The notes below the pieces were generated by a model. It did no database searches. It was not told the origin of the DNA and was given only the letters and a program-made list of their open reading frames with translations. The position numbers and the translations under genes were made by a program. This document shows, piece by piece, positions 17,559-55,685 of a DNA stretch of 64,000 bases. Source of the DNA: Polycladidibacter hongkongensis (GTDB taxonomy: Bacteria; Pseudomonadota; Alphaproteobacteria; Rhizobiales; Stappiaceae); the NCBI RefSeq assembly GCF_001561995.1, contig NZ_LLWC01000022.1, positions 682,001 through 746,000 on the forward strand, written 5' to 3'. The first letter of the stretch is position 1; each line of letters begins with the position of its first letter.

Positions 17559-17990
17559 CTAAGCCTGCGCTGCACATCCTTTACACAGGCCCTTTATCTC
17601 AACTGCCGTTTGCCGCCGCACAAAGCCTGACCGCTTTGTCCACTCGGCAAATTGCTGCTCGATCTGATCATCAGCAAATTCGTCGACACTGCCGCACGCT
17701 TCACAAATCGCAAAGCACACCATTTCATGCTCAGCACAGCATGGCTGCGCGCATGCGACAAAGGCGTTCAAGCTTTCCAGCTTATGGACGAGAGATGTGT
17801 CCACCAGCTTATCCAGCGCCCGGTATACCTGCTGCGGCGCCCGCAGCCCATCGGCTCGCACCTCATCCAGAATTGCATAGGCACTCATCGGCGCGCTTGC
17901 ATGGCGCAGAACATCCCACACCAACTGCTGGTTTTTGGTAAGAGAAGGTTCAGACCGCTTCACATGTCCATGTGCTTCACACTGGCTCAT
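17559..17990 (-). CDS. zur: Fur family zinc uptake regulator Zur
   Basis: 143 residues. Winged-helix N-terminus with SAYAILDEVRADGLRAPQQVYRALDKLV, which is characteristic of Zur, then metal-site residues: His/Cys in CCAEHEMVCFAICEACGSV (CxxC) and a C-terminal GLCKGC. It binds DNA when loaded with zinc and represses uptake genes. ATG 17990 has GGAGG seven bases upstream. Third gene of znuC-znuB-zur, thirteen bases after znuB. A Zur box is present before znuC, so the operon is self-repressing. Confidence 0.93.
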   Translation of the reverse strand: MSQCEAHGHVKRSEPSLTKNQQLVWDVLRHASAPMSAYAILDEVRADGLRAPQQVYRALDKLVDTSLVHKLESLNAFVACAQPCCAEHEMVCFAICEACGSVDEFADDQIEQQFAEWTKRSGFVRRQTAVEIKGLCKGCAAQA

Positions 17991-18003
17991 TCCATTTCCT
18001 CCA

Positions 18004-18810
18004 CTACCCACGCTTGCGCCGCTCGATCAGCGCACCCAAGCTGATGCAGACCATGAAAACCAACAGGCTGCAAACCACGATAGATGGCCCCGAGGCGCTG
18101 TCAAATTGTAACGAACCCCAAAGCCCGCCAGCAACACCAACCATCCCCAGAAGCGCGGCCAAAACAGCCATTATCTCCGGTGAGCGTGAAAGCCATCGCG
18201 CCGCCGCCGCAGGAATAATCAATAGGGCCGTAATCAACAAAGCACCAACAATCTTCAGCGCCACCGCGATCACACCGGCGATCAGCAGCACAAACACCAT
18301 CTCGCTGAGCTGCGGCCGCTGGCCCTCTGCCTCGGCAATTTCGTGGTTCAACGTCGCCGCTAGTAATGGCTGCCACATGGCCCAGAGCAACACCAGCACA
18401 CCAGCACCAATAATCGCAATAACCAATATGTCGGAGTGATCAACAGCAAGCAGATCGCCGAATAGCAAAGCCATAAGATCAACCCTGGCATCATCCATAA
18501 AGCCGATCATTACCAGCCCAACTGCCAACGCACCGTGCGATAAAATCCCCAATAGTGTATCAGCAGATAGAGTGCCGCGCCGCCGCAGTGCCACCAGCAG
18601 CACCGCCACCAGTGCCACAATTGCGCCAACCCCTAGCAGCATATCCACCTGCAAAAACACCGCCAGCGCAACCCCAAGCAAGGCCGCATGCGCCATGGTA
18701 TCGCCAAAATAGGAAAGTCGCCGCCAAATAACAAAGCAACCAAGCGGCCCGGCAACAGCTGCCAGCATTAAGCCGGCAACCATCGCCCGCATGAAGAAAT
18801 CATCAAGCAT
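18004..18810 (-). CDS. znuB: Zinc ABC transporter permease ZnuB
   Basis: 268 residues of an ABC-3 family permease with eight or so membrane helices. Recognisable stretches are SYFGDTMAHAALLGVALA near residue 40 and ALKIVGALLITALLIIPAAAARWLS in the C-terminal half. ATG 18810 overlaps the znuC stop, so translation is coupled; the longer frame to 18912 lies inside znuC. Pairs with ZnuC to import Zn2+; the periplasmic ZnuA is not encoded next to it. Confidence 0.93.
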   Translation of the reverse strand: MLDDFFMRAMVAGLMLAAVAGPLGCFVIWRRLSYFGDTMAHAALLGVALAVFLQVDMLLGVGAIVALVAVLLVALRRRGTLSADTLLGILSHGALAVGLVMIGFMDDARVDLMALLFGDLLAVDHSDILVIAIIGAGVLVLLWAMWQPLLAATLNHEIAEAEGQRPQLSEMVFVLLIAGVIAVALKIVGALLITALLIIPAAAARWLSRSPEIMAVLAALLGMVGVAGGLWGSLQFDSASGPSIVVCSLLVFMVCISLGALIERRKRG

Positions 18811-19621
18811 TGCCGCGCTCCTTACTATCCTGCTCCTTGGAAGACTGGTGAGGATGGCTGTGGTTTTCACCGCAACACCCGCCAGCATCTGCGGGAACAA
18901 CACGCCCGTCATCTAGATGTTGGTGATCGTGGTTATGTTGATAAAGCGCCAACGAAGCCATCGCCTGTTCGCCGAAGATCTGCTGAAACTCCTGTGAGCC
19001 AGAAACCGTTGCAGGTGCCCCGCGACAACAAACATGCCCGTTAAGACACACAACAGAGTCCGTCTGCGCCATAACGACGTGTAAATCATGGGAAATCATT
19101 AACACGCCGCAATCAAGCTCTTCACGTAACTGCAAAATCAAATCATAGAGCGCCAGCTCACCACCATAATCCACTCCTTGCACCGGCTCATCAAGCACAA
19201 GCAAGTTTGGCGAACGCAGCAATGCACGCGCCAATAACGCACGCTGAAACTCACCGCCCGAAAGCCCTTGGACAGGTGCCTTTTCCATACCGGCGATACC
19301 CGTACGTTCCAAGGCTGCCGCTATTTGCTGGCTACTTGGTCGCTCTGTCAGGCGCATTAAACGCTCTACGCTCAGCGGCAACGTCCAGTCCAACGCCAGT
19401 TTTTGCGGCACATACCCCACTTTTAGCCGCGCAGATCTGGAAACCCGCCCTTCGTTCGCAGCCATAACCCCAAGTGCCACCCGGGCGCAGGTGCTTTTGC
19501 CTGCCCCATTTGGGCCAATCAGGCTTACAATTTCTCCGCGCTTAATATCAAAACTGACATTCCGCACCAGCCAACGGCCACTGCGATGAACACCAATATC
19601 ATCAAGGGAAACGAGTTGCAC
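18803..19621 (-). CDS. znuC: Zinc ABC transporter ATPase ZnuC with His-rich tail
   Basis: 272 residues. Walker A GPNGAGKST, signature GLSGGEFQRALLARAL, Walker B LLVLDEPVQGVDY and the ISHDLHVV switch region mark a metal-type ABC ATPase. The C-terminal tail is histidine- and cysteine-rich (HNHDHQH, GGCCGENHSHPH), a likely zinc-binding region as in other alphaproteobacterial ZnuC proteins. GTG 19621 has AGGAG seven bases upstream; the frame extends upstream without a ribosome site. First gene of znuC-znuB-zur. A Zur box lies at 19652-19664. Confidence 0.93.
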   Translation of the reverse strand: MQLVSLDDIGVHRSGRWLVRNVSFDIKRGEIVSLIGPNGAGKSTCARVALGVMAANEGRVSRSARLKVGYVPQKLALDWTLPLSVERLMRLTERPSSQQIAAALERTGIAGMEKAPVQGLSGGEFQRALLARALLRSPNLLVLDEPVQGVDYGGELALYDLILQLREELDCGVLMISHDLHVVMAQTDSVVCLNGHVCCRGAPATVSGSQEFQQIFGEQAMASLALYQHNHDHQHLDDGRVVPADAGGCCGENHSHPHQSSKEQDSKERGNA

Positions 19622-19651
19622 GATCGCACTCCTAATCGAATTGCAATCCGC

Positions 19652-19664
19652 GTTATAACATAAC
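19652..19664 (-). promoter_or_regulatory. Zur box before znuC
   Basis: The minus strand reads GTTATGTTATAAC, five of six arm positions palindromic, close to the Zur consensus GTTATAATATAAC. It lies 31 bases before the znuC GTG. Confidence 0.7.
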
Positions 19665-19707
19665 AGACCAATCTGCCAAGCGCCTTTATCAGCCCAAAGA
19701 GGCGTAG

Positions 19708-19745
19708 CAAAACAAAAGGCCCCGCCTATACACAAGACGGAGCCT
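19708..19745 (-). terminator. Terminator of uxuA operon
   Basis: AGGCTCCGTC and GGCGGGGCCT pair over ten positions on the minus strand (with G-T pairs), followed by TTTTGTTTTG. Confidence 0.75.
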
Positions 19746-19771
19746 CCAACAGTCTCTATTAGGCGAGCAAC

Positions 19772-20953
19772 TTAGCTTGCACGCAGCTGTTTTACCGCCA
19801 GCTCGACGCCGCGTAGCTCCGCTAAACCGCGCAAGCGCCCCACAGCAGGGTAACCCGGTGCCGACTTCATGGTAAGATCTGAAAGCATGGCGTGGCCATG
19901 GTCAGGCCGGAACGGGATAAGGTCCTTCCACCCCGCTTTATGGCGGCGCTCTTCCTCGTCCAACAATGCGCTGATAACACCAACCATATCAACATCACCT
20001 GTCAGGTGATCTGCCTCGTGGAAAGAGGCGGGATTATCTTCGCGTTGGGTTGCCCGCAAATGCACAAAGTGAATGCGATGCGCATAACGTTTAGCAATAC
20101 CAACCAGATCATTATCAGCGCGCACGCCAAGCGAGCCGGTGCAGTAGGTAAAGCCGTTGGCCTCATGGTCAACCGCTTTCGAGATGAACTCATAGTCCGC
20201 TTCGGTCGAGCAGATGCGCGGCAAGCCAAGCAAAGGCCGTGGCGGATCATCCGGGTGGATCGCCATGACCGCACCTTCTTCGATACAAACCGGGATCACA
20301 GCTTGCAAGAACAGCGCCAGATGCTCCCGTAACTTGTCAGCATCGATACCATCATAGGTCGCCAGCTTCTCGCGGATTTCTTTCACCGTGTAACTCTCTT
20401 CAGAGCCCGGCAACCCGGCAATAATGGTCTTGACCAGCTTATCCTTATCCGCCTCGCTCATCGCGGCATAAGCGGCCTTCGCCCGCGCGAGCTCCTCCGC
20501 GCTATATTCCGCCTCAGCGCCCTCACGCTCCAGAATATAAAGATCAAACGCGGCAAAGATGTCAGCATCAAAGCGCAAGCAGGTTGCACCCGTTGGCAAT
20601 TCAAAAGTCAGATCCGTACGCGTCCAGTCCAGCACTGGCATAAAATTGTAGCAAACCTTGGTGATGCCACACTTTACCAGATTGCGAATGCTCTGCTTGT
20701 AAGCTTCGATATGCGCTTCAAAGTCGCCGCTGCGGGTTTTGATCTCTTCGTGAACAGGAATACTCTCCACCACAGACCAGACAAGGCCAGCCGCCTCGAT
20801 CTCGTCTTTACGTTTCTGGATTTCCTCCACGCTCCACACCACGCCATTTGGAATGTGGTGCAAGGCAGAGACAACACCGGTTGCACCAGCTTGACGAATA
20901 TCACTCAACTTAACGGGATCATTAGGCCCGTACCAACGCCACGTTTGTTCCAT
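19772..20953 (-). CDS. uxuA: Mannonate dehydratase
   Basis: 393 residues, the usual length. It dehydrates D-mannonate to 2-keto-3-deoxy-D-gluconate and is a TIM-barrel metal enzyme. The start [20 protein letters not shown] with [15 protein letters not shown], the metal-binding [15 protein letters not shown], the [17 protein letters not shown] motif and the final [10 protein letters not shown] are hallmarks. AGAGAAG precedes the ATG. Last gene of the minus-strand arm (GH2, GntR, uxuA) of the hexuronate locus; UxuB and UxaC supply its substrate from the other arm. Confidence 0.96.
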
Positions 20954-20985
20954 TGCACTTCTCTTTTTATTTGGCTTATTGCCGG

Positions 20986-21753
20986 TTATTGGGTCTGGTC
21001 GCTAGACAAAGCGGCCAAGGGGTCAGTGTTAAACAGGTAGGCGTCAAAGGCCGGATCGTCGACGTCGGACAATTCCAGCAGTTTTAGCCGCACATTCTCT
21101 AAATGCTGCCACATGGCCCGTCGGGCTTGCATCGGATCGCGGCACTGCAACGCAGCAAGAATGGCTTGGTGATCGTCAAGCCAATGTCTTTGGTAGCCAC
21201 TGTCAAAAATCCGTTGATGCAGTTTCGCCCACATTTTAGATCTTTTGCGCATCTCCCAGAGATGATCGACGGCTTCCACCAGAACAGAATTTTGGCTTGC
21301 AAGCGCCACAGAACGATGGAACTCTTCGTCCGCCACATAGGCGCCGCTGCCAGTTTCCATATCGTGACGCTCTTGTTCCAGCGCCTCGCGCATACGCACG
21401 ATATCCGCCTTAGTCACCATGGTAGCCGCGAAGGCCGCAATATTGCTTTCCAGCAATTGCCGCGCCTGCAGCAGCTCAAAGGGGCCAATATCATTTTGTG
21501 GTTCCGCACTATCATCTCCCACATGAGGCAGCCGCATGACATAGGTTCCCGAGCCCTTGCGCACACTCACGATGCCCTCAACCTCCAGCATAATCATCGC
21601 ATCACGCACCAAAGAGCGGCTCACGCCCAATTGCTCGGAAATGTGCCGCTCCGTTGGCAGCCGATCCCCAATCTGGAATGAGCCGACCATCAACTCACTC
21701 CGGATCATCTCGGCCACATCCTGATAGCGACGCTTTGTCGTCTGCTCTGCCAT
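20986..21753 (-). CDS. GntR/FadR family regulator of the hexuronate locus (UxuR-like)
   Basis: 255 residues. Winged HTH (about 10-75; [26 protein letters not shown]) then an FCD effector domain (about 95-235). E. coli UxuR/ExuR belong to the same subfamily and bind TTGGTATACCAA; two such boxes lie at 23811-23822 and 23969-23980 between the two operons. Sits between the GH2 and uxuA genes, with an eleven-base gap from GH2. Most likely represses both operons until fructuronate or a relative binds. Confidence 0.88.
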
Positions 21754-43962: not shown

Positions 43963-44872
43963 ACGCACCATCAATAGATTGTGTATTGAGAAAAAGGGTG
44001 TAGCCCCAAACCTCTCAAACCCAAGTACTTTCACTGACAAACTTCAATGGCTGAAGCTATATGATCAACGGCCTGAGCAAATAGTGTGTGTAGACAAATA
44101 TCTATGCCGTGGCTACGTCGCTGAACGTATTGGAAACAGCTTTCTTTTGGACGTGTATGGAGTTTCTGATCATATAGATCACCTTCCATTTGATGTTTTT
44201 CCAACCGTGTACGTGCTAAAAACAAACCATGATAATGGTTCCGTTCGTGTGATTCACAATAAGCACGACCTGAAGAATGCACGAAGTTTTTTAAAAAAGA
44301 GAGCGCGCAGAACATTTGGCCGTGAAAAAGGTGAATGGGCCTATGCTCATGTAAAACCATTATTTTTTGCAGAGCAATTCATGCCTGGAGACGTCATCGA
44401 TTACAAATTTCATTGTTGTAGCAATGAAGTAAAATGGGTGCGAGTCATTCATGAACGCACGGGACAATCCCCTTTAGAAATCGTTGTAGATCGAGATTAC
44501 CAACCAATGGGCATTCCCTTCGATCCACTGATGCGAACGTCTAACACCCCCCCTCCAAGGCCTGCTTCCTGGGAAACTATGATAGAAGCTGCATTAACGT
44601 TAGCTGATGGGTTTAAATTTGTGAGAGTAGATCTCTATGAGTTGGACGGCAAACCAAAGTTTGGAGAAATGACCTTCTGGCCGTTAGCAGGTGTTCTTAC
44701 CACCGAGCATGATGTCTTTTTTGGAAGCCTTCTAGATTTTGATACTGACATTAAAAAAACTCCCATGCATGATGATTTAAGTTTTTCAAGTTACCCCAAA
44801 AAAGGACTTAAAGGCATGGCCGCAAAATTAGGTTATAGAATGCTCGATTATGGAATAAAGAAAGATGCGTAG
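43952..44872 (+). CDS. TupA-like ATP-grasp protein
   Basis: 306 residues. Sequence resembles the TupA-like ATP-grasp family (first linked to teichuronopeptide synthesis): NPSTFTDKLQWLKLYDQ, CVDKYLCRGYVAERIG, VLKTNHDNGS and the C-terminal FVRVDLYELDGKPKFGEMTFWP with an acidic metal-binding FGEMTF. It should ligate an amino acid or other carboxylate to an amine or sugar acid using ATP. GAGGA before ATG 43952; it overlaps the methyltransferase stop. AT-rich. Members are common in capsule or O-antigen clusters. Confidence 0.8.
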   Translation: MKLERTINRLCIEKKGVAPNLSNPSTFTDKLQWLKLYDQRPEQIVCVDKYLCRGYVAERIGNSFLLDVYGVSDHIDHLPFDVFPTVYVLKTNHDNGSVRVIHNKHDLKNARSFLKKRARRTFGREKGEWAYAHVKPLFFAEQFMPGDVIDYKFHCCSNEVKWVRVIHERTGQSPLEIVVDRDYQPMGIPFDPLMRTSNTPPPRPASWETMIEAALTLADGFKFVRVDLYELDGKPKFGEMTFWPLAGVLTTEHDVFFGSLLDFDTDIKKTPMHDDLSFSSYPKKGLKGMAAKLGYRMLDYGIKKDA

Positions 44873-45929
44873 CGAGTTTGAATCAACGTTTACAACAGAA
44901 AAGGTTCCCGATTTACAACACAAAAAGTTAATCTGCATTAGTGTCATGTACAATGAAGAGCTACGGCTTCCCGACTTTTTGCGACATCAACGCAATTTAG
45001 GAGTAGATCATTTTTTAATTATAGACAACAATTCAACAGATAAAACAGCTGAAATTTTAGACAACTCAATAGATGTGACCCGATTTCACACAAAAGAAAG
45101 CTACAAAAACAATAGATTTCGCTGGCTTAAGATTGTCGCCGATAGACTCGCAAAAAATAAATGGGTCCTAATACTTGACGCGGACGAATTATACGTCCAT
45201 CCCTTATGGCCGGAAAGAAAGCTACCCCAGCTTTGCGAATATTGGGACAAACAAAACAAAAGCGCCATATTCTCTCCAATGATCGACATGTATTCCGACC
45301 AAGATTTAAACAACATTTCATACAAGGCGGGCGATAGCCTAATCGCTTGTTGTAGTTTTTTCGATCCAAATGGATACCGCTTTCAAGGGAAAAGCAACTC
45401 AAAAAACCAAATTCCAGGGTTTACGATAAAAGGAGGGCCACGCGAGCGTGTTTTTTACAATAAGAAAACAAACAAAAAGTGGGTAAATATTACTAAAAAC
45501 TTCCTTTTCAAATCAATTACTTACAGATCCCCTAGACTATTGTTTGCCCTACAAAATTTATTAATTAAACGCTTTGTCTGCGCAGATTCTCCTGCCATGA
45601 GTAAGGTTACGTTGTTGAAATGGAATTCAACCATAGACGCTGGCAACGGGCTACATCAACTTAAAGGAAATGTAAAACTTGCTGACGAATGGTGTAGCAT
45701 TCTCCATTTTAAATATCTTCAAGACTTTTCAGAAAAAGTTAATAGCGCGATTGCACGTAAAACTCACAACAATAACTCCGAGGAGTATGTCAGGTATAAG
45801 TCAATCGTAGATAGTGGGACAAAAAACCCCTTCTACACCAAAAGCGCCCAAAAATTTTCGAGCAGCAAAACCTTGCTCGAAAATTCACTAATGCGAACGA
45901 GCCCTCGCTTTGACAAGTTCTTTTCATAG
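44865..45929 (+). CDS. Family 2-type glycosyltransferase (Glyco_tranf_2_4)
   Basis: 354 residues. The N-terminal CISVMYNEELRLPDFLRHQRN, DHFLIIDNNSTDKT and VLILDADELYVHP motif form the typical GT2-like nucleotide-sugar site with DAD metal motif near residue 105. It overlaps the previous gene by eight bases. Distinctly AT-rich with codon use unlike the bulk of the window, a sign of transfer. Substrate unknown. Confidence 0.75.
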   Translation: MRSEFESTFTTEKVPDLQHKKLICISVMYNEELRLPDFLRHQRNLGVDHFLIIDNNSTDKTAEILDNSIDVTRFHTKESYKNNRFRWLKIVADRLAKNKWVLILDADELYVHPLWPERKLPQLCEYWDKQNKSAIFSPMIDMYSDQDLNNISYKAGDSLIACCSFFDPNGYRFQGKSNSKNQIPGFTIKGGPRERVFYNKKTNKKWVNITKNFLFKSITYRSPRLLFALQNLLIKRFVCADSPAMSKVTLLKWNSTIDAGNGLHQLKGNVKLADEWCSILHFKYLQDFSEKVNSAIARKTHNNNSEEYVRYKSIVDSGTKNPFYTKSAQKFSSSKTLLENSLMRTSPRFDKFFS

Positions 45930-46989
45930 AAATCTCTCTGTCGTCCTGCCCACATATAATAGCATCGCTTTTTTACCAACAGCGGTGGAAAGCATCCTAT
46001 GTCAGACCCATACTGACTTTGAACTAATCGTCGTGAATGATGGTTCTACCGATGCAACGCAAGCCTATCTAGATGAGATTGCTGGCTCTGATCCTCGTCT
46101 GAAGGTGATTAAACAGGAAAACGCAGGCATAGTCGCCTCACTAAACCATGGCATCACCGCCGCCAACGGTGAATTTATCGCACGCATGGACGCAGATGAC
46201 ATCGCCCATCCGGCCCGGTTGGCAAAGCAAGTTGCCTATCTAAAAGCGCACCCAAGAATAGGAGTTATTGGCACTCAAATGCGGGTTTTCTCGCAAAGCA
46301 ACAACAAAACCAAACGCTCACGCTATCCGACCCATCCTGACAAAATCGCTATGGCCTTCGCCAAGGGGCGCAATCCCGTTTGCCATCCAAGCGTTGTGAT
46401 CCGAAAACAAGTGCTGCTAGATGTTGGCGGTTACCGCTCATTTTTCACAGCCGCACAAGACTACGACCTCTGGTTACGCTTGCAAGACCGCACGCAGATT
46501 GCAAACCTCAGTGAGGTCTTGCTTGATTACCGCAGCCACGACAACAGCACCACGGTTAAGCAACACCTCGCGCAAAACAATTGCCGGGCAATCGCCAGAT
46601 ACTGCGCAGACAAGCGCAGACAAGGCCATCCAGACCCTTTGGATGAAATGGGCGGTGTAGTTGACACAGCCAAAATAAGAAACGCTGAAACCCGCAACGA
46701 GCTGGACGCGATCCTCGACACCTTACCTTTCTATCACGACGTGCTGGAAGACCCTGTCAAGCTGGCATCCGCCACTGCAGAACACCAAATCAACGTGCTG
46801 AAGCTGCTTGAAAAAGGCTACCTTGGCGGCGGTAGAAAAAACATCGCCCTTTTCTGTGAGCGTGTGTTTTTTGCCGCGCGCCAAAAAGGCAACAAACCGT
46901 TAATGCGAGCTGCATTACGGTTGCATAAGAGTTGCTCAACCACCCGACATCTAAAATTTGTAATGAAAGAAAACGCCATCTTTCTTTAA
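45910..46989 (+). CDS. Family 2 glycosyltransferase
   Basis: 359 residues with strong GT2 motifs: VVLPTYNSIAFLPTAVESIL, ELIVVNDGSTDAT, ENAGIVASLNHG and ARMDADDIAHPARL (DxDD). The second half has the QDYDLWLRL motif (ED/QDYD general base), then a helical C-terminus. TTG 45910 is the only start codon before the conserved core, so it overlaps the preceding gene by 20 bases. The base composition returns to that of the chromosome. It completes the glycan cluster. Confidence 0.85.
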   Translation: MTSSFHRNLSVVLPTYNSIAFLPTAVESILCQTHTDFELIVVNDGSTDATQAYLDEIAGSDPRLKVIKQENAGIVASLNHGITAANGEFIARMDADDIAHPARLAKQVAYLKAHPRIGVIGTQMRVFSQSNNKTKRSRYPTHPDKIAMAFAKGRNPVCHPSVVIRKQVLLDVGGYRSFFTAAQDYDLWLRLQDRTQIANLSEVLLDYRSHDNSTTVKQHLAQNNCRAIARYCADKRRQGHPDPLDEMGGVVDTAKIRNAETRNELDAILDTLPFYHDVLEDPVKLASATAEHQINVLKLLEKGYLGGGRKNIALFCERVFFAARQKGNKPLMRAALRLHKSCSTTRHLKFVMKENAIFL

Positions 46990-49072: not shown

Positions 49073-49146
49073 CAGAATCTGTAAAAAGCGACAAGGCGCC
49101 GCTATAAACTAAACAGCCAAAATTCTCAGTAAAATTTTAGGAGAGA

Positions 49147-49167
49147 ATGGCTGGGGTGGTAGGATTC
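49147..49167. repeat. attL-like repeat of tRNA-Gln 3' end
   Basis: 21 bases (from ATGGCTGGGG to GTAGGATTC) identical to the 3' end of tRNA-Gln at 54115-54135, in the same orientation, but here followed by no tRNA. It marks the far end of a small integrated element of about 5 kb. The surrounding 49073-49406 holds no gene that I can support. Confidence 0.8.
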
Positions 49168-49406: not shown

Positions 49407-51485
49407 CTATATTAGCGAACGGTTGTCCATTTGTTTGCTAACTTCAAGCATTGCCTCTCCAACTTCATTCAAGTTGTTTAGTGTGCAGATATCATAAATT
49501 AGATCACCGGATCTTTGCGTCAGATGCCTTACTCTTTCAAGTCCTACCCATAAGCCCTTACCTTTGAGCATTGCATACTTGAGTTGGTCTATGCTCAGCC
49601 ACCATGTTGACATCGCAAATGAAAAGATGAGATCCGCATCTTTTCCAGATTGAGCATCAATTATCTTTCTTAAGCTCACGCTTAATCCATCAAGCTTAGA
49701 GTTAAAACTACTGCAAAGCTTCTGTGCTTTAGGATCATCAATTGTAAGCTGTCGTCCGATAAACAACTCTAACAACGAGATGACCATGTCCCTGTGTTGC
49801 ATAGAACCATGATCAAACAAACTTATCCCAATTTTTTCTATTGATCGTCCACTCAACGACAGCTTTTGACCATTTCTAAAATGTAACGTCTCTTGCGTTC
49901 TTAAAGCGGCTTCATGCCTAGCCAGCTGCATTGTAAAATGCAGGAAGCTACCATCTAGATCAGCAAGTGCAGACAATGCATCTCCTTGACGAGATTTATT
50001 GGTTAAAACCTTTTTCTTGCACTCAAAAAGGAAAATGCGCTCCTCAGTTTCGACTGCAATGTCAATTTCAAGATCCGTTCCACCATCTGGATTGGGGTAA
50101 CATCCATTTACAACGGAAACAGGAGAGCCAGAATCTCGCAGTGCACTCGCTGTTACGTGCTCTAACGCCGCGCCCATTTTGTTTTCAAGTCTAGGGATAT
50201 TGCTCTCACGCATTAAAGCATACGCACGTTCGCAGATAGCACGACCCAAAGGTCCCTTTGGCTGCAACAATGCTTCACCACGAGGACCCATTAGTACCGG
50301 AAAATAGGTTGCATCTCTGTGCTTTGTATCGTGTGGTCTCAAGTAGCTCCTATTCAAATCAACACTTGGAGAACACATTACATCTAAGAGCTTTGTCGTC
50401 TCTTCATGAGAAAGACTTTCGGTTCTGATTTTTGATCGTGTGACTGGAAACAAGGCACTCTCGCTAGAAAGAGAAAGTAGACACTTCGAGAGCTCAGTCC
50501 ACCCATCCGCATTAACAATCGGCAATCGACACCCAACATTCTCCAACGCCCTGAACCAGTCAGCAAATAAATCTGGCGACGTGAGTGGCTGCCATTGCGG
50601 AAATGCAAACATCTCATCATAAACAAGAGTTTCATGTAGAGCTTGTGAAAATAAGGCTCCATCAAGGTTCAAGTATTCAAATGCGCTATACGGCTCTACA
50701 TCGACAACAGATGCAATGAGCCTACCTAGTTCTTCAATAGATTGTATATCGTTCTTGGAAGCGCTGGAACGCGCAGGAATTCGCGCATTTTTCAAACATA
50801 ACGAATAAATGAAGTGCCAAGGCAGGCTTGGCCCTCCGTGAAGATTAGACGGCTGTGTTGGCCGACGAGCGTGTATCAGCGAGCCATCTTTGATATGGCC
50901 AATCTCACCCATATAGGCCAGCAGGATGTTTGCTGCTTGCACCCCTCCAACTTTATGGATTTTTTTCTCCAGACGAACACACAACCGCTTCAGCTCCGAG
51001 GGAGCAATCTTAATGCCTGTGCCATCAACATTCATGCGAAATCCTTTACTCCGTAGAGAGCGAACAGTACCCGCAATAGCTTCTTCTCTTGACCCTTCGA
51101 TTAATTCATGCCGAAACCAATGATTGTTAATGAGCAAAGTCGCATTATCTAGCGCACATCGCCACGCACCTGCGTTTTCAAAGTGTTGGCATTTCTCAAC
51201 ACCTGTTAAGCTATCAAAGATTGCATAGAGAAGGTACCACGTTTCAACCTGAGCCTCCTCTAGGTACAATGCAATTTCCATCGATTTACGAATTCGGAAC
51301 AGGTAGCTAGACGGAAAACCATCAGCGTCTGATGCAAGAGCTGTTTTTATGGCATTTTGCGCAGTTTGGATTACGGTAGCATCGCTAGCTTCTTTAGGAA
51401 TGGGGTCAAGGTTAACTTGGTTTGCATACGGCTGAGCAAGAGAAGTAAATTTCTTGAGGCTTGAAGCAAAAGTAAAAGCAGGCAT
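49407..51485 (-). CDS. Unknown protein with PD-(D/E)XK nuclease core
   Basis: 692 residues; I recognise no family over the whole length. Residues 436-500 carry a PD-(D/E)XK-like core: Glu442 (GAALEHVTA), Asp475 (DLEIDIAVE) and the Glu488-x-Lys490 pair (LFECKKK), with beta-strand spacing typical of restriction-like nucleases. The region before is mostly helical and there are no membrane segments or signal peptide; the last 150 residues are again helical. The ribosome site is weak (GGGATG). It is the only full cargo gene of the tRNA-Gln island, a setting common for phage defence genes. Role in nucleic-acid cleavage is inferred only. Confidence 0.6.
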   Translation of the reverse strand: MPAFTFASSLKKFTSLAQPYANQVNLDPIPKEASDATVIQTAQNAIKTALASDADGFPSSYLFRIRKSMEIALYLEEAQVETWYLLYAIFDSLTGVEKCQHFENAGAWRCALDNATLLINNHWFRHELIEGSREEAIAGTVRSLRSKGFRMNVDGTGIKIAPSELKRLCVRLEKKIHKVGGVQAANILLAYMGEIGHIKDGSLIHARRPTQPSNLHGGPSLPWHFIYSLCLKNARIPARSSASKNDIQSIEELGRLIASVVDVEPYSAFEYLNLDGALFSQALHETLVYDEMFAFPQWQPLTSPDLFADWFRALENVGCRLPIVNADGWTELSKCLLSLSSESALFPVTRSKIRTESLSHEETTKLLDVMCSPSVDLNRSYLRPHDTKHRDATYFPVLMGPRGEALLQPKGPLGRAICERAYALMRESNIPRLENKMGAALEHVTASALRDSGSPVSVVNGCYPNPDGGTDLEIDIAVETEERIFLFECKKKVLTNKSRQGDALSALADLDGSFLHFTMQLARHEAALRTQETLHFRNGQKLSLSGRSIEKIGISLFDHGSMQHRDMVISLLELFIGRQLTIDDPKAQKLCSSFNSKLDGLSVSLRKIIDAQSGKDADLIFSFAMSTWWLSIDQLKYAMLKGKGLWVGLERVRHLTQRSGDLIYDICTLNNLNEVGEAMLEVSKQMDNRSLI

Positions 51486-51792: not shown

Positions 51793-52084
51793 TCATCGGA
51801 AATTTGCGAGGACTTGCTCAACGACTTGGCGGGTAGCGGCAATATCCTGCGGGGTGAGCTCATCGCCTTTGGCAAGCAATGCACTCATGCTGCGTCGGAG
51901 TTCAACAACATTTGTGCGAAAATCACTGCCGTAATCCTTTTGCGCCGCTACACTTTTGATCGCACGGCGTAGGATGTGAGAGGCAGATTTGCCACGCCTC
52001 TCCGCAGCTCGTTGCAGCAGCTCCTTTTCGTGAGAGGTAACGCGAAATTTGATTGTCTTGTCCTGTGATCTGCCGCCAATAATC
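51793..52084 (-). pseudogene. MobC-like/ribbon-helix-helix protein, 5'-truncated
   Basis: About 96 codons survive. DKTIKFRVTSHEKELLQRAAERRG with ASHILRRAIKSV is like the ribbon-helix-helix N-terminus of MobC-family mobilisation proteins. (Shown in parts: KTIKFRVTSHEKELLQRA and ASHILRRAIKSV.) The IS3 element begins immediately upstream, and no start codon remains before the conserved part, so the gene is broken. It suggests that the island was once part of a mobilisable element. Confidence 0.55.
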
Positions 52085-52145
52085 TGGACCGTTTCTGGTT
52101 GGAATTTTCCATTTAAGCTCCCGTTGTCGGGAAGAGGAGAATTCG

Positions 52146-52412
52146 ATGAAAGCCTCAAAGTTTTCGGAAGCGCAAATTGCCTTTGTTTTGAAGCAGGCTG
52201 AAGATGGCATGGCGGTAGCGGAGGTCTGTCGCAAGGCCGGAGTGAGCCAGGCGACATTTTACAACTGGCGCAAGAAGTATGCTGGCCTGATGCTCTGCGA
52301 GATGAAGCGGTTGCGACAACTGGAAGCGGAAAACGGGCGTCTGAAGAAATTGGTAGCGGATCTTTCTTTGGACAAGGCAATGCTTCAGGATGTTTTGTCA
52401 AAAAAGCTTTAA
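52146..52412 (+). CDS. IS3 OrfA (transposase helix-turn-helix subunit)
   Basis: 88 residues: MKASKFSEAQIAFVLKQAED with AEVCRKAGVSQATFYNWRKKY is the IS3 OrfA helix-turn-helix, followed by a leucine-zipper-like RLRQLEAENGRLKKLVADL. It ends in TCA AAA AAG CTT TAA; the A-AAA-AAG slippery heptamer (52400-52406) is the classical site of -1 frameshifting into OrfB. AGAGGAG precedes the ATG. Confidence 0.88.
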   Translation: MKASKFSEAQIAFVLKQAEDGMAVAEVCRKAGVSQATFYNWRKKYAGLMLCEMKRLRQLEAENGRLKKLVADLSLDKAMLQDVLSKKL

Positions 52413-53239
52413 AGCCTGCTCGCAAACGGTTGCTCGTTGATGAGGTGTGCGAGGCATGGAATGTGTCAATTCGCAAAGCCTGCCAGGCTCTGAAGATTGA
52501 TCGTTCCCTGTACACCTACAAGTCAAAGCGTGGTGATCAGGCTGCTTTGAAACTGCGAATAAAAGAGATCTGTGAAACCCGTATCCGGTTTGGCTATCGG
52601 CGGGTTCATGTTCTGTTACGGCGGGAAGGCTGGGCTGTCAATCCAAAGCGCGTGCGCCGTCTTTACAATGAGTTAGGTCTGCAACTGCGCAACAAAACGC
52701 CGAAACGGCGTGTGAAGGCCAGGCTTCGAGCAGATCGCCATGATCCAACCCACACAAACCAGGTCTGGGCGATGGATTTTGTACATGATCAGCTCGCGAC
52801 CGGCCGCAAAGTCCGTATCCTGACCATCGTTGATACCTATTCCCGCTTTTCGCCCGCCACGGACCCAAGGTTTAGTTACAAAGGAGAGAACGTAGTTGAA
52901 ACGCTGGAAAGGGTCTGTAGGTAGACTGGGTATCCGCAAGTCATACGCTGTGATAACGGCAGCGAGTTTGTATCCCGCGATCTTGATCTATGGGCCTACG
53001 CGAAAGGGGTCACCCTCGACTTTTCGCGTCCAGGAAAGCCGACAGACAACGCCTTCATTGAAAGCTTTAACGGTTCTCTGCGGGTTGAGTGCTTAAATGC
53101 GCACTGGTTCATGAGCCTTGACGATGCCCGTGAAAAATTGGAGACTTGGCGTAGAGACTACAATGAGGTACGTCCTCATAGTGCTATTGGGAATAAGCCC
53201 CCGGCAGTACTCGCAAATGCTCAACAGACGATACCCTGA
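52409..53239 (+). pseudogene. IS3 OrfB transposase, interrupted by a stop codon
   Basis: The integrase-core part of the IS3 transposase, in the -1 frame relative to OrfA. The first portion (HTH_21 and start of rve domain; MDFVHDQLATGRKVR) runs to 52924, where an in-frame TAG replaces what in relatives is a CAG/Gln codon (VCR-stop-TGYPQ). The frame then continues to the TGA at 53237-53239 with DNGSEFVSRDL, DNAFIESFNG and YNEVRPHSAIGNKPP, so the catalytic DDE residues are split. A single-base nonsense change (CAG to TAG) explains it; the enzyme is presumably dead. Confidence 0.82.
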
Positions 53240-53297
53240 CTTGAGCGCAACACCCCGGAAAATCTTCCACCCGGGTGGTCCTAAAACAAGGATCCTC

Positions 53298-53969
53298 TCA
53301 AAACGGGGAGCGTAACTCTACGCCATAACTCCTCCAAAAATGGGGGGAATACCAAATGAACTTATCTGCCCGGTATTCGCAGTCACATAAACTCTGTTCA
53401 ACAGCTGCTATTTCTTTTAGGCCAAGCCCGTCTTGAACCATTAACAACCGATCTCGTTCTCTCAGCTTGACCTTATTCCCATGTGCAGCGAACAGTTTGT
53501 GCAACCAGTGCTGAACTTTTTCATTAGCTTCTTCAGAATCTATATTGAAATCAGTACGTTGCTTTGCACGCAAGGCAGCAGCATCCAGATCGCGTGTGAA
53601 CGTAATTCCGAATTCCTGTATCATCGCCACTACCTGCGCGTCCGAAAGCATACCTTGCCTATATACACGAAACACAGCATTACTGAAGGCTGTCAGCAGT
53701 GAAGCCCTCTGTTTCGCGAAATAAAACTCACGCGTATGCAAACAATGTTGTATTTTTCCCGGAGATGAATTTTTGTGTTCTTTAGGTGTTTTCGGTTTTA
53801 CACTATCAGCAATACGGTTGTTTCGATAAAATATCGGTTCTTCTATCCCGTTATATGCATTGTAATGATTATCAATACCGTATTCGGGATCTAAAAGACG
53901 TTTTTTTGGTAATCTTCGTTGCCAATAATAAACATCACCGCGACGATAAGCATGTTGCACTTTATGCAC
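53298..53969 (-). pseudogene. Integrase-like protein, C-terminally truncated
   Basis: 223 residues remain. HAYRRGDVYYWQRRLP is typical of the first domain of alphaproteobacterial tyrosine recombinases; then come helical parts (FYFAKQRASLLTAFSNAVF, GMLSDAQVVAMIQEFG) like the SAM-like core-binding region. The catalytic C-terminal domain with R-H-R-Y is absent, since the IS lies 16 bases beyond the stop. The position next to tRNA-Gln, whose end it would have recognised, supports the call. The gap 53970-54115 holds nothing else I can support. Confidence 0.6.
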
Positions 53970-54114
53970 ACGTAAAACCTCTCAGAGTTGAGAGTTGAAG
54001 TGCATAAATTCTGATGGCTTAGACCCGTTATGTACGACAGCGGTGTACTACAAGTAATCATCTGCGAAACTCTAATCGCGTAATATGCTGTCATATAACT
54101 ATTTTCAGGAGAAG

Positions 54115-54135
54115 ATGGCTGGGGTGGTAGGATTC
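54115..54135. repeat. attR-like repeat (true tRNA-Gln 3' end)
   Basis: The right copy of the 21-bp direct repeat, covering the CCA end and T-arm of the intact tRNA. Confidence 0.8.
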
Positions 54136-54190
54136 GAACCTACGATACACGGTACCAAAAACCGTTGCCTTACCACTTGGCTACACCCCA
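54116..54190 (-). tRNA. tRNA-Gln(UUG)
   Basis: 75 bases including encoded CCA. Acceptor TGGGGTG pairs with the CACCCCA end; the anticodon arm ACGGT-TTTTGGT-ACCGT gives TTG; the T-arm GTAGG-TTCGAAT-CCTAC is standard. It is the target of the island to its left. Confidence 0.97.
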
Positions 54191-54338: not shown

Positions 54339-55457
54339 TCAGCTCCCCAACAACTGGGGAGCGACATCCTCCCAACGCTCAAAAAGGGAAAGATGTGCCA
54401 TGACACTTGAATGCGCATTAAATAGGTGTGCCCTTCGAGGGGCCTTTGAGTTCGTAGCTTCGCTAAACGCCAGTGCCGCAGCCGCGGCCGCCAGTTCTTG
54501 CAGCCTCTCCCCTCGCACCAAGACGAAGCCATCCAATCCATCCAACAGCATGCGTTGCGATATCCCCACATCGTGGCAGACAACAGGCCTTGCATGAGCG
54601 AGAGCCTCAACCAGCAATCGCGAAATCTGCCGAGAACGACAGCAGTTAACAAACACCGACGCTGCGGCTATCTCATCTCGCAGTTGTGCGTCCTCATAGG
54701 GAAAGATAGCAGTTCGCGCCCCCTCCGGCATTTGCGCACAGGCATTGCCGTAGTCAGAATACGGAACAGCTAGCACCAACTGAATCGAAGTACCCGAAAA
54801 AGCATGCGCAAGTACATGGCGCAAGTGCTGCAGATCTTGCTCCTGTCCGCATTGCACTACCACACGTTTGCAGGGCTCTTCCGGTTGTCTCACTTGGCGG
54901 TGTGCGAAGACCTCGGCCCCAAGCAAAGGCGGGTAAACACGCGTAATTGGCACCTCTTGCAAGTGTCCACAAGCTTGCAACATATTTTCTAGCCCATCGC
55001 CAAAGCACACAATCGCCGCAGCGCTTCCGTAGCAGTCAGGCACCGCCAGAGACAGCACCAACGGCCGCATTTCTTTATTCAGCTCAGGGTGTGGATCAAA
55101 CAGCTCCGGCACCGCCAAAACAACAGGAACTCCAAGCCGGAGGCGTATTTTCACAGCGCACACAGCAAGAATATTGGCGCCATGGCCTATGGAGTACACA
55201 AGACTAGGCATTATCTGCGCAACCAGCTGCCCCAGCGGTCCAACAGCAACACCATTACTGTTCGCTCCAAGCCCAAACGCCGCGATCTCTTCTGGCAGCT
55301 CGCCTGTAGCCCGCAGCTGCTCTACATCATCCAGACTGGCCCTTGCGACAATAAGAAAAACTTCGTGCCCTTCTGCAGCAAAGCCACGTGCCAACACCTT
55401 TGCACTAAAACAAGCGCTGGTTTCATCCAAACGCTCAAGCAGGATGCAAATACGCAT
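54339..55457 (-). CDS. Glycosyltransferase family 4-like protein
   Basis: 372 residues, GT-B fold. N-terminal RICILLERLDETSACFSAKVLARG and EGHEVFLIV, C-terminal SVFVNCCRSRQISRLLVEALAHARPVVCHDVG (given in parts: SVFVNCCRSRQISRLL and VEALAHARPVVCHDVG), a typical Glu-x7-Glu region reduced to one Glu. GGAGGAAGC precedes ATG 55457. Single gene next to tRNA-Gln. Product unknown, probably a surface saccharide. Confidence 0.72.
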   Translation of the reverse strand: MRICILLERLDETSACFSAKVLARGFAAEGHEVFLIVARASLDDVEQLRATGELPEEIAAFGLGANSNGVAVGPLGQLVAQIMPSLVYSIGHGANILAVCAVKIRLRLGVPVVLAVPELFDPHPELNKEMRPLVLSLAVPDCYGSAAAIVCFGDGLENMLQACGHLQEVPITRVYPPLLGAEVFAHRQVRQPEEPCKRVVVQCGQEQDLQHLRHVLAHAFSGTSIQLVLAVPYSDYGNACAQMPEGARTAIFPYEDAQLRDEIAAASVFVNCCRSRQISRLLVEALAHARPVVCHDVGISQRMLLDGLDGFVLVRGERLQELAAAAAALAFSEATNSKAPRRAHLFNAHSSVMAHLSLFERWEDVAPQLLGS

Positions 55458-55685
55458 GCTTCCTCCACCAATGCTGCCGTCAATGCCTTTTCCGCATTTA
55501 AGCAATCACCAGCAGCAGGGTAACGCTGTCTCTTGCGGCACTCAATTCTGAAAAATGCCCCCTGATTTTGCCGCGTCCCCCTTATATTTTCGCAAATACT
55601 TTTGAGTTTTTCCTTTTAAATCAGCCCAGCTCTTTCTATGTTGCCAGCCAGATTCCAATAGACGACACAACGACTAGAAACAGCA

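Follow-up and report, generated by a model that had tools for sequence, protein, structure and literature searches.

What is the function of the one intact gene carried by an island at a tRNA gene of Polycladidibacter hongkongensis? The gene lies in a stretch of 64,000 nucleotides (contig NZ_LLWC01000022.1, positions 682,001 to 746,000; hereafter the window, with positions counted from its first letter), and encodes a protein of 692 amino acids (aa), which an earlier note, made from the letters alone, had put forward as a PD-(D/E)XK protein of no recognised family. The comparisons presented here suggest that the window protein belongs to a family of compact sensor-nucleases related to the defence protein Upx, in which both the sensing and the cleavage functions are predicted.

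A conserved nuclease core

The reading frame is intact, as had been described, running from 51485 down to 49407 on the minus strand over 692 codons. Its parts are as follows (residue counts refer to alignment A6, see below).

49407..51485, minus strand: gene for the 692-aa Upx-like PD-(D/E)XK protein P0001, complete, stop present
51081..51485, minus strand: residues 1-135, N-terminal, mostly helical in the structure model, outside the Upx match, which begins at residue 136
50190..51080, minus strand: residues 136-432, largely helical module, aligned with Upx 735-1114
49821..50189, minus strand: residues 433-555, PD-(D/E)XK core (a433-451, b457-463, b472-479, b483-490, a503-531, b548-555)
50160..50162, minus strand: Glu442 codon, residue identical in 28/28
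50061..50063, minus strand: Asp475 codon, residue identical in 28/28
50016..50024, minus strand: Glu488-Cys489-Lys490 codons, E488 and K490 identical in 28/28

The residues singled out earlier (Glu442, Asp475 and Glu488-x-Lys490) are all present, and in the structure model the core has the a-b-b-b-a-b arrangement of PD-(D/E)XK nucleases, with D475 on strand b2 (472-479) and E488 and K490 on strand b3 (483-490), behind helix 433-451. The protein thus has the conserved D, the E-x-K and the helix E of this fold, and the model also reproduces the large helical regions that had been noted on both sides of the core. In alignment A6, whose 28 rows are 578-725 aa long, E442, Y463, D475, E488 and K490 are identical in all rows, and G438 and K492 in 27. 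Before this count was made, a homologue split by an insertion sequence (IS; L012) and fragments or sequences cut by contig ends (L082, L102, L103, L073) were dropped, one protein was kept from each identical set (L070/L087, L069/L080/L090, L072/L089 and L085/L093), and one of L091/L092, which are near-identical by score. In the earlier alignment A1, E488 and K490 were conserved in 11 of 12 rows, L012 being cut there by the IS. The nuclease fold is seen in the model and E442, D475, E488 and K490 are kept in homologues, two of the three outcomes on which the earlier note had made its proposal depend. It is close to certain that the protein has a PD-(D/E)XK nuclease fold, and cleavage activity itself is predicted.

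Probable kinship with Upx

The defence protein Upx is already described (PADLOC PDLC02221, also called 'Gao Upx', with 9wuf as the cryo-EM entry bearing its name; source paper Gao et al. 2020), and its C-terminal half is the counterpart of residues 136-630 of the window protein. The module that precedes the nuclease (136-432) is far closer to Upx than to any other chain compared, and we regard a relationship to the C-terminal half of this protein as likely. The Upx profile PDLC02221 itself was matched by none of the 28 members, and is absent among the 13 families matched at E<=0.1 and the 14 matched at E<=10. The earlier statements that the protein has no recognised family and forms an undescribed system therefore stand as far as family models go, none of which covers it, whereas the distant link to Upx takes residues 136-630 out of their reach. 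A 1259-aa protein of locus L098 does match the Upx profile (3.1e-26), and further Upx-like proteins were assigned by tblastn similarity to it; a viral scan with the Upx-like query gave no match. In this Chitinophagaceae locus a compact homologue and the Upx-like protein occur 5.5 kb apart (L098:9992-12100 and 17562-21341).

Upx is named as a defence system (PMC12629846), filed under nucleic acid degradation in a table (PMC10855318), mentioned as 'Gao Upx' (PMC13249269) and reported, as upx, together with qatABCD on integrative and conjugative or integrative and mobilizable elements (PMC12824646). The 'upx' in PMC12691588 is an unrelated capsule locus. Our literature search, which covered few subscription papers, found no paper on the mechanism or structure of Upx, and none mentioning six homologue accessions.

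A sister family was met through the profile searches of class and phylum genomes described below. It comprises five proteins of about 700-730 aa, one frame being 844 (genes at L074:2416-4521, L075:8910-11093, L077:3176-5710, L078:8243-10447 and L079:9299-11452; L076, with a shorter frame, was left out), with a PD-(D/E)XK-like core. Aligned with hhalign, it matches A6 with probability 97.8 and E 1.1e-12 over 393 columns, and the Upx set with E 9.3e-7. It differs from the window family in having its own N-terminus and, in three of the five translations, a C-terminal SEC-C-like motif, which gave a Pfam match in L079, the one scanned. It is conceivable, although we would put it somewhat below an even chance, that the window protein stands for one of three branches (compact, SEC-C and Upx) of a superfamily with an unnamed module fused to PD-(D/E)XK. 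This would be a widespread class of immune sensor-nucleases encoded by single genes, in which Upx alone would have attracted notice so far and the compact form would be the minimal working unit.

Matches to other nuclease families

With the window protein, Pfam, NCBIfam (run on this protein only) and PADLOC gave sub-threshold or core-only matches. NERD (PF08378) scored 16.3 bits, below the gathering score of 22.1, and was matched by three of the 28 members at E<=0.1 (best 0.013); the Pfam UPF0102/YraN model was matched by one of the 28 (best E 0.015), and one homologue is annotated as YraN family. Searches of PDB sequences returned nothing significant, the weak core matches being UPF0102 3fov (E 0.066), 2eo0 (0.44) and Hjc 4tkd (2.2), and a BFVD fold search had no match at E<0.001. 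Matches to DpnII (1/28, 2.7e-4), KR (1/28, 0.005), PADLOC PDC-M29B (4/28, best 3.4e-4), CARF_PDDEXK and Csx1 (2/28 each) and PHROGs (best 0.0092) were judged chance or core-only.

Distribution of homologues

The homologue scans were seeded from short patterns, so that all counts are lower bounds. Among plasmids, tblastn matched at least 16 of 72,556 records, the best being Rhizobium jaguaris with 36.9% identity over 90% of the protein; with its best relative at 37%, the window protein is a divergent family member. Neither 50,697 phage records nor, in a first scan with the single window protein, genome contigs gave a match. A homologue was found in two of 87 genomes of the own family (one of the 86 others) and in two of 397 of the own order, the own genome included in both cases. 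Profile searches at E<=0.001 matched 32/385 class and 43/398 phylum genomes, two to three candidates being scored per genome at order, class and phylum level; the only full-length matches beyond the own genome were in G637 and G1110, and a contig end truncates that in G1010. The remaining matches, shorter or weaker and mostly limited to the nuclease core, were not counted as homologues. IMG/VR yielded four loci and 84,980 species genomes yielded 20 (one a 55-residue piece), from Pseudomonadota, Verrucomicrobia, Holophagaceae, Myxococcales and Bacteroidetes.

A Xanthomonas plasmid protein is 60% identical (best segment) to a Gluconobacter protein, to which the window protein, from a host that is likewise alphaproteobacterial, is only 24% identical; these identities are consistent with horizontal movement. 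Genome G047, of the same family as the window genome, carries a protein identical to that of Roseibium sediminis contig L090. An IS3-type element interrupts the homologue on Shewanella baltica plasmid pS18501 (L012:9593-12927).

Genomic setting of the homologues

No constant partner gene was found: among 430 open reading frames (ORFs) within 8 kb, only transposases recur in more than two loci, and recurrence in two loci (integrase, Y-family polymerase, ParA, phage genes and others) was not considered enough to make a partner. HEPN partners were suspected in two neighbours with R-N-K-x-x-H (L069, L098), an idea that was rejected, as these have only 27 residues in common (E 0.003) and no Pfam match. 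Twenty-four hand-picked neighbours, in 19 of the 31 distinct loci, were scanned with PADLOC, and a defence gene was counted in 13 loci:

L004: Dsr1, 97 bp upstream
L005: BilD
L007: type II methylase
L009: AbiEii
L010: HmaB/HmaC
L011: GajB
L072: SIR2 and pAgo
L091: CBASS effector
L094: pAgo
L096: type I restriction endonuclease
L098: Upx
L100: AbiH
L101: ThsB, with AbiGi added by Pfam

A caspase model at L012 and kinase models at L095 were excluded from the count as less specific, and the scanned neighbours at L006, L086, L088 and L097 had no PADLOC defence match. Further neighbours recognised by Pfam are PIN_12 (L085), HNH (L097), portal and terminase (L081) and a tail-fibre gene (L083). Two phage contigs, related to each other and encoding a gpP-like terminase, have the homologue directly next to the portal/terminase genes (L081:5824-10769, L082:1-3556), a position that is a common site of accessory genes in P2-like phages. 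The R. phaseoli homologue is preceded, at a distance of about 210 bp and on the same strand, by a gene for a 1438-aa protein without Pfam or PADLOC match (L006:5334-9650).

The tRNA-Gln island

The gene is flanked by a repeat of 33 bp at 91% (49135-49167 and 54103-54135) with an exact 21-bp core, the copies being 4,968 bp apart. Since this repeat ties 49147-49167 to the 3′ end of tRNA-Gln, the island would measure about 4,968 bp. Its features besides the nuclease gene are:

54116..54190, minus strand: tRNA-Gln (TTG)
54115..54135, no strand: proximal att-like repeat, 3′ end of tRNA-Gln
53298..53969, minus strand: 223-aa ORF adjoining tRNA-Gln, DUF6538 start sub-threshold (25.3 vs 27 bits), probably a truncated integrase
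52146..53240 (right end approximate), plus strand: IS3-type remnant, ORF A 52146-52412, ORF B cut at 52924
51793..52110 (right end approximate), minus strand: RHH/NikA-like fragment running into the IS, sub-threshold (24.2 vs 27 bits)
49147..49167, no strand: distal att-like repeat, copy of the tRNA-Gln 3′ end

One IS3-type ORF has HTH_Tnp_1, the other HTH_21 and a cut rve. With the other ORFs belonging to the IS or apparently partial, the description of the nuclease gene as the sole intact non-IS gene of the island holds on these data. Base composition alone says little, because the G+C contents of island (46%), gene (44%), the two measured flanks (48% and 52%) and window (52%) are so similar. 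A Pfam glycosyltransferase gene lies to the right of the island (54339-55505) and glycosyltransferase-like ORFs, judged by eye, to the left (44865-46989).

Proposed function and alternatives

We consider it rather probable that the window protein acts on its own as a sensor-nuclease, that it is a compact relative of Upx, itself a defence system of one protein, and that the integrated island carries it as cargo. The computed basis is the PD-(D/E)XK domain at the C-terminus, in which E-D-ExK is invariant, together with the module joined to it (136-432), which matches the same-placed module of Upx. This module would detect something introduced or brought about by phage or plasmid DNA on its entry (candidate triggers are DNA ends, replication forks, the lack of host marks or a protein of the phage) and would restrain the nuclease until then; metal-dependent DNA cleavage, once triggered, would destroy the invader or kill the infected cell, and no partner gene would be required. 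An antiviral function of the family as a whole we infer with reasonable, though far from full, confidence. The earlier suggestion of a single-protein defence or DNA-processing system is in keeping with the nuclease fold, the conserved motif, the absence of a constant partner and a setting that is mobile and often rich in defence genes, whereas its defence activity stays a prediction. As to the third outcome named in the earlier note, homologues in housekeeping operons, those of L071 and L099 do by eye stand alone among ordinary chromosomal genes.

A solitary restriction-like or modification-dependent endonuclease, in which residues 136-432 would recognise a DNA sequence or a modified base and the C-terminal part would cut, as in the one-chain FokI and N.BspD6I, seems unlikely, given that a constant methylase partner is lacking and that, of all chains compared, Upx is by far the closest to the module preceding the nuclease. 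The carriers (plasmids with 16 records, phage contigs and the window island) would also suit a nuclease that works for the mobile element itself, by maintaining the island, plasmid or prophage or by competing with other elements, and not in defence against phages; yet these elements differ widely, with no tie to one type, and many loci lie near defence genes, so that we give this possibility little weight. A DNA-repair or recombination nuclease of the Hjc, UPF0102 (YraN) or NERD type with an extra domain would account for the 3fov, 2eo0, 4tkd and NERD matches and the YraN-annotated member, but all these matches are weak and limited to the core, and a distribution as patchy as one in 86 other genomes of the family makes such a role very improbable.

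The family is a candidate defence gene in five phyla that is missed by the PADLOC 2023 models. A natural Upx relative of about half the length could help to assign sensing and cutting to their parts of the protein and should be easier to handle, and A6 offers positions for mutants, both in catalysis (E442, D475, E488, K490) and in the rest of the protein (W108, G148, P222, N378).

Comparison with known systems

NERD, UPF0102/YraN, Hjc and DpnII have a PD-(D/E)XK-type core in common with the window protein, the matches being weak, found in this protein or in few members, and confined to the core where seen. In CARF/Can2-type nucleases, Lamassu LmuA and Shedu SduA, the fold of the nuclease half is like that of the window protein, but their sensor parts appear to lie outside the aligned stretch (LmuA rows 430-643, SduA rows 305-643), and PADLOC CARF_PDDEXK and Csx1 match residues 436-510 only. 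With Upx, the window protein shares the C-terminal PD-(D/E)XK with G-[DE]-I-D...E-C-K, the same order of module and nuclease throughout the C-terminal half, and the organization as a single large chain that lacks a fixed partner. It differs in its length, 692 residues being short of a full-size Upx of about 1,206-1,271, in having an N-terminus of 135 residues where Upx has its first ~730, and in an identity of 12% over the aligned part.
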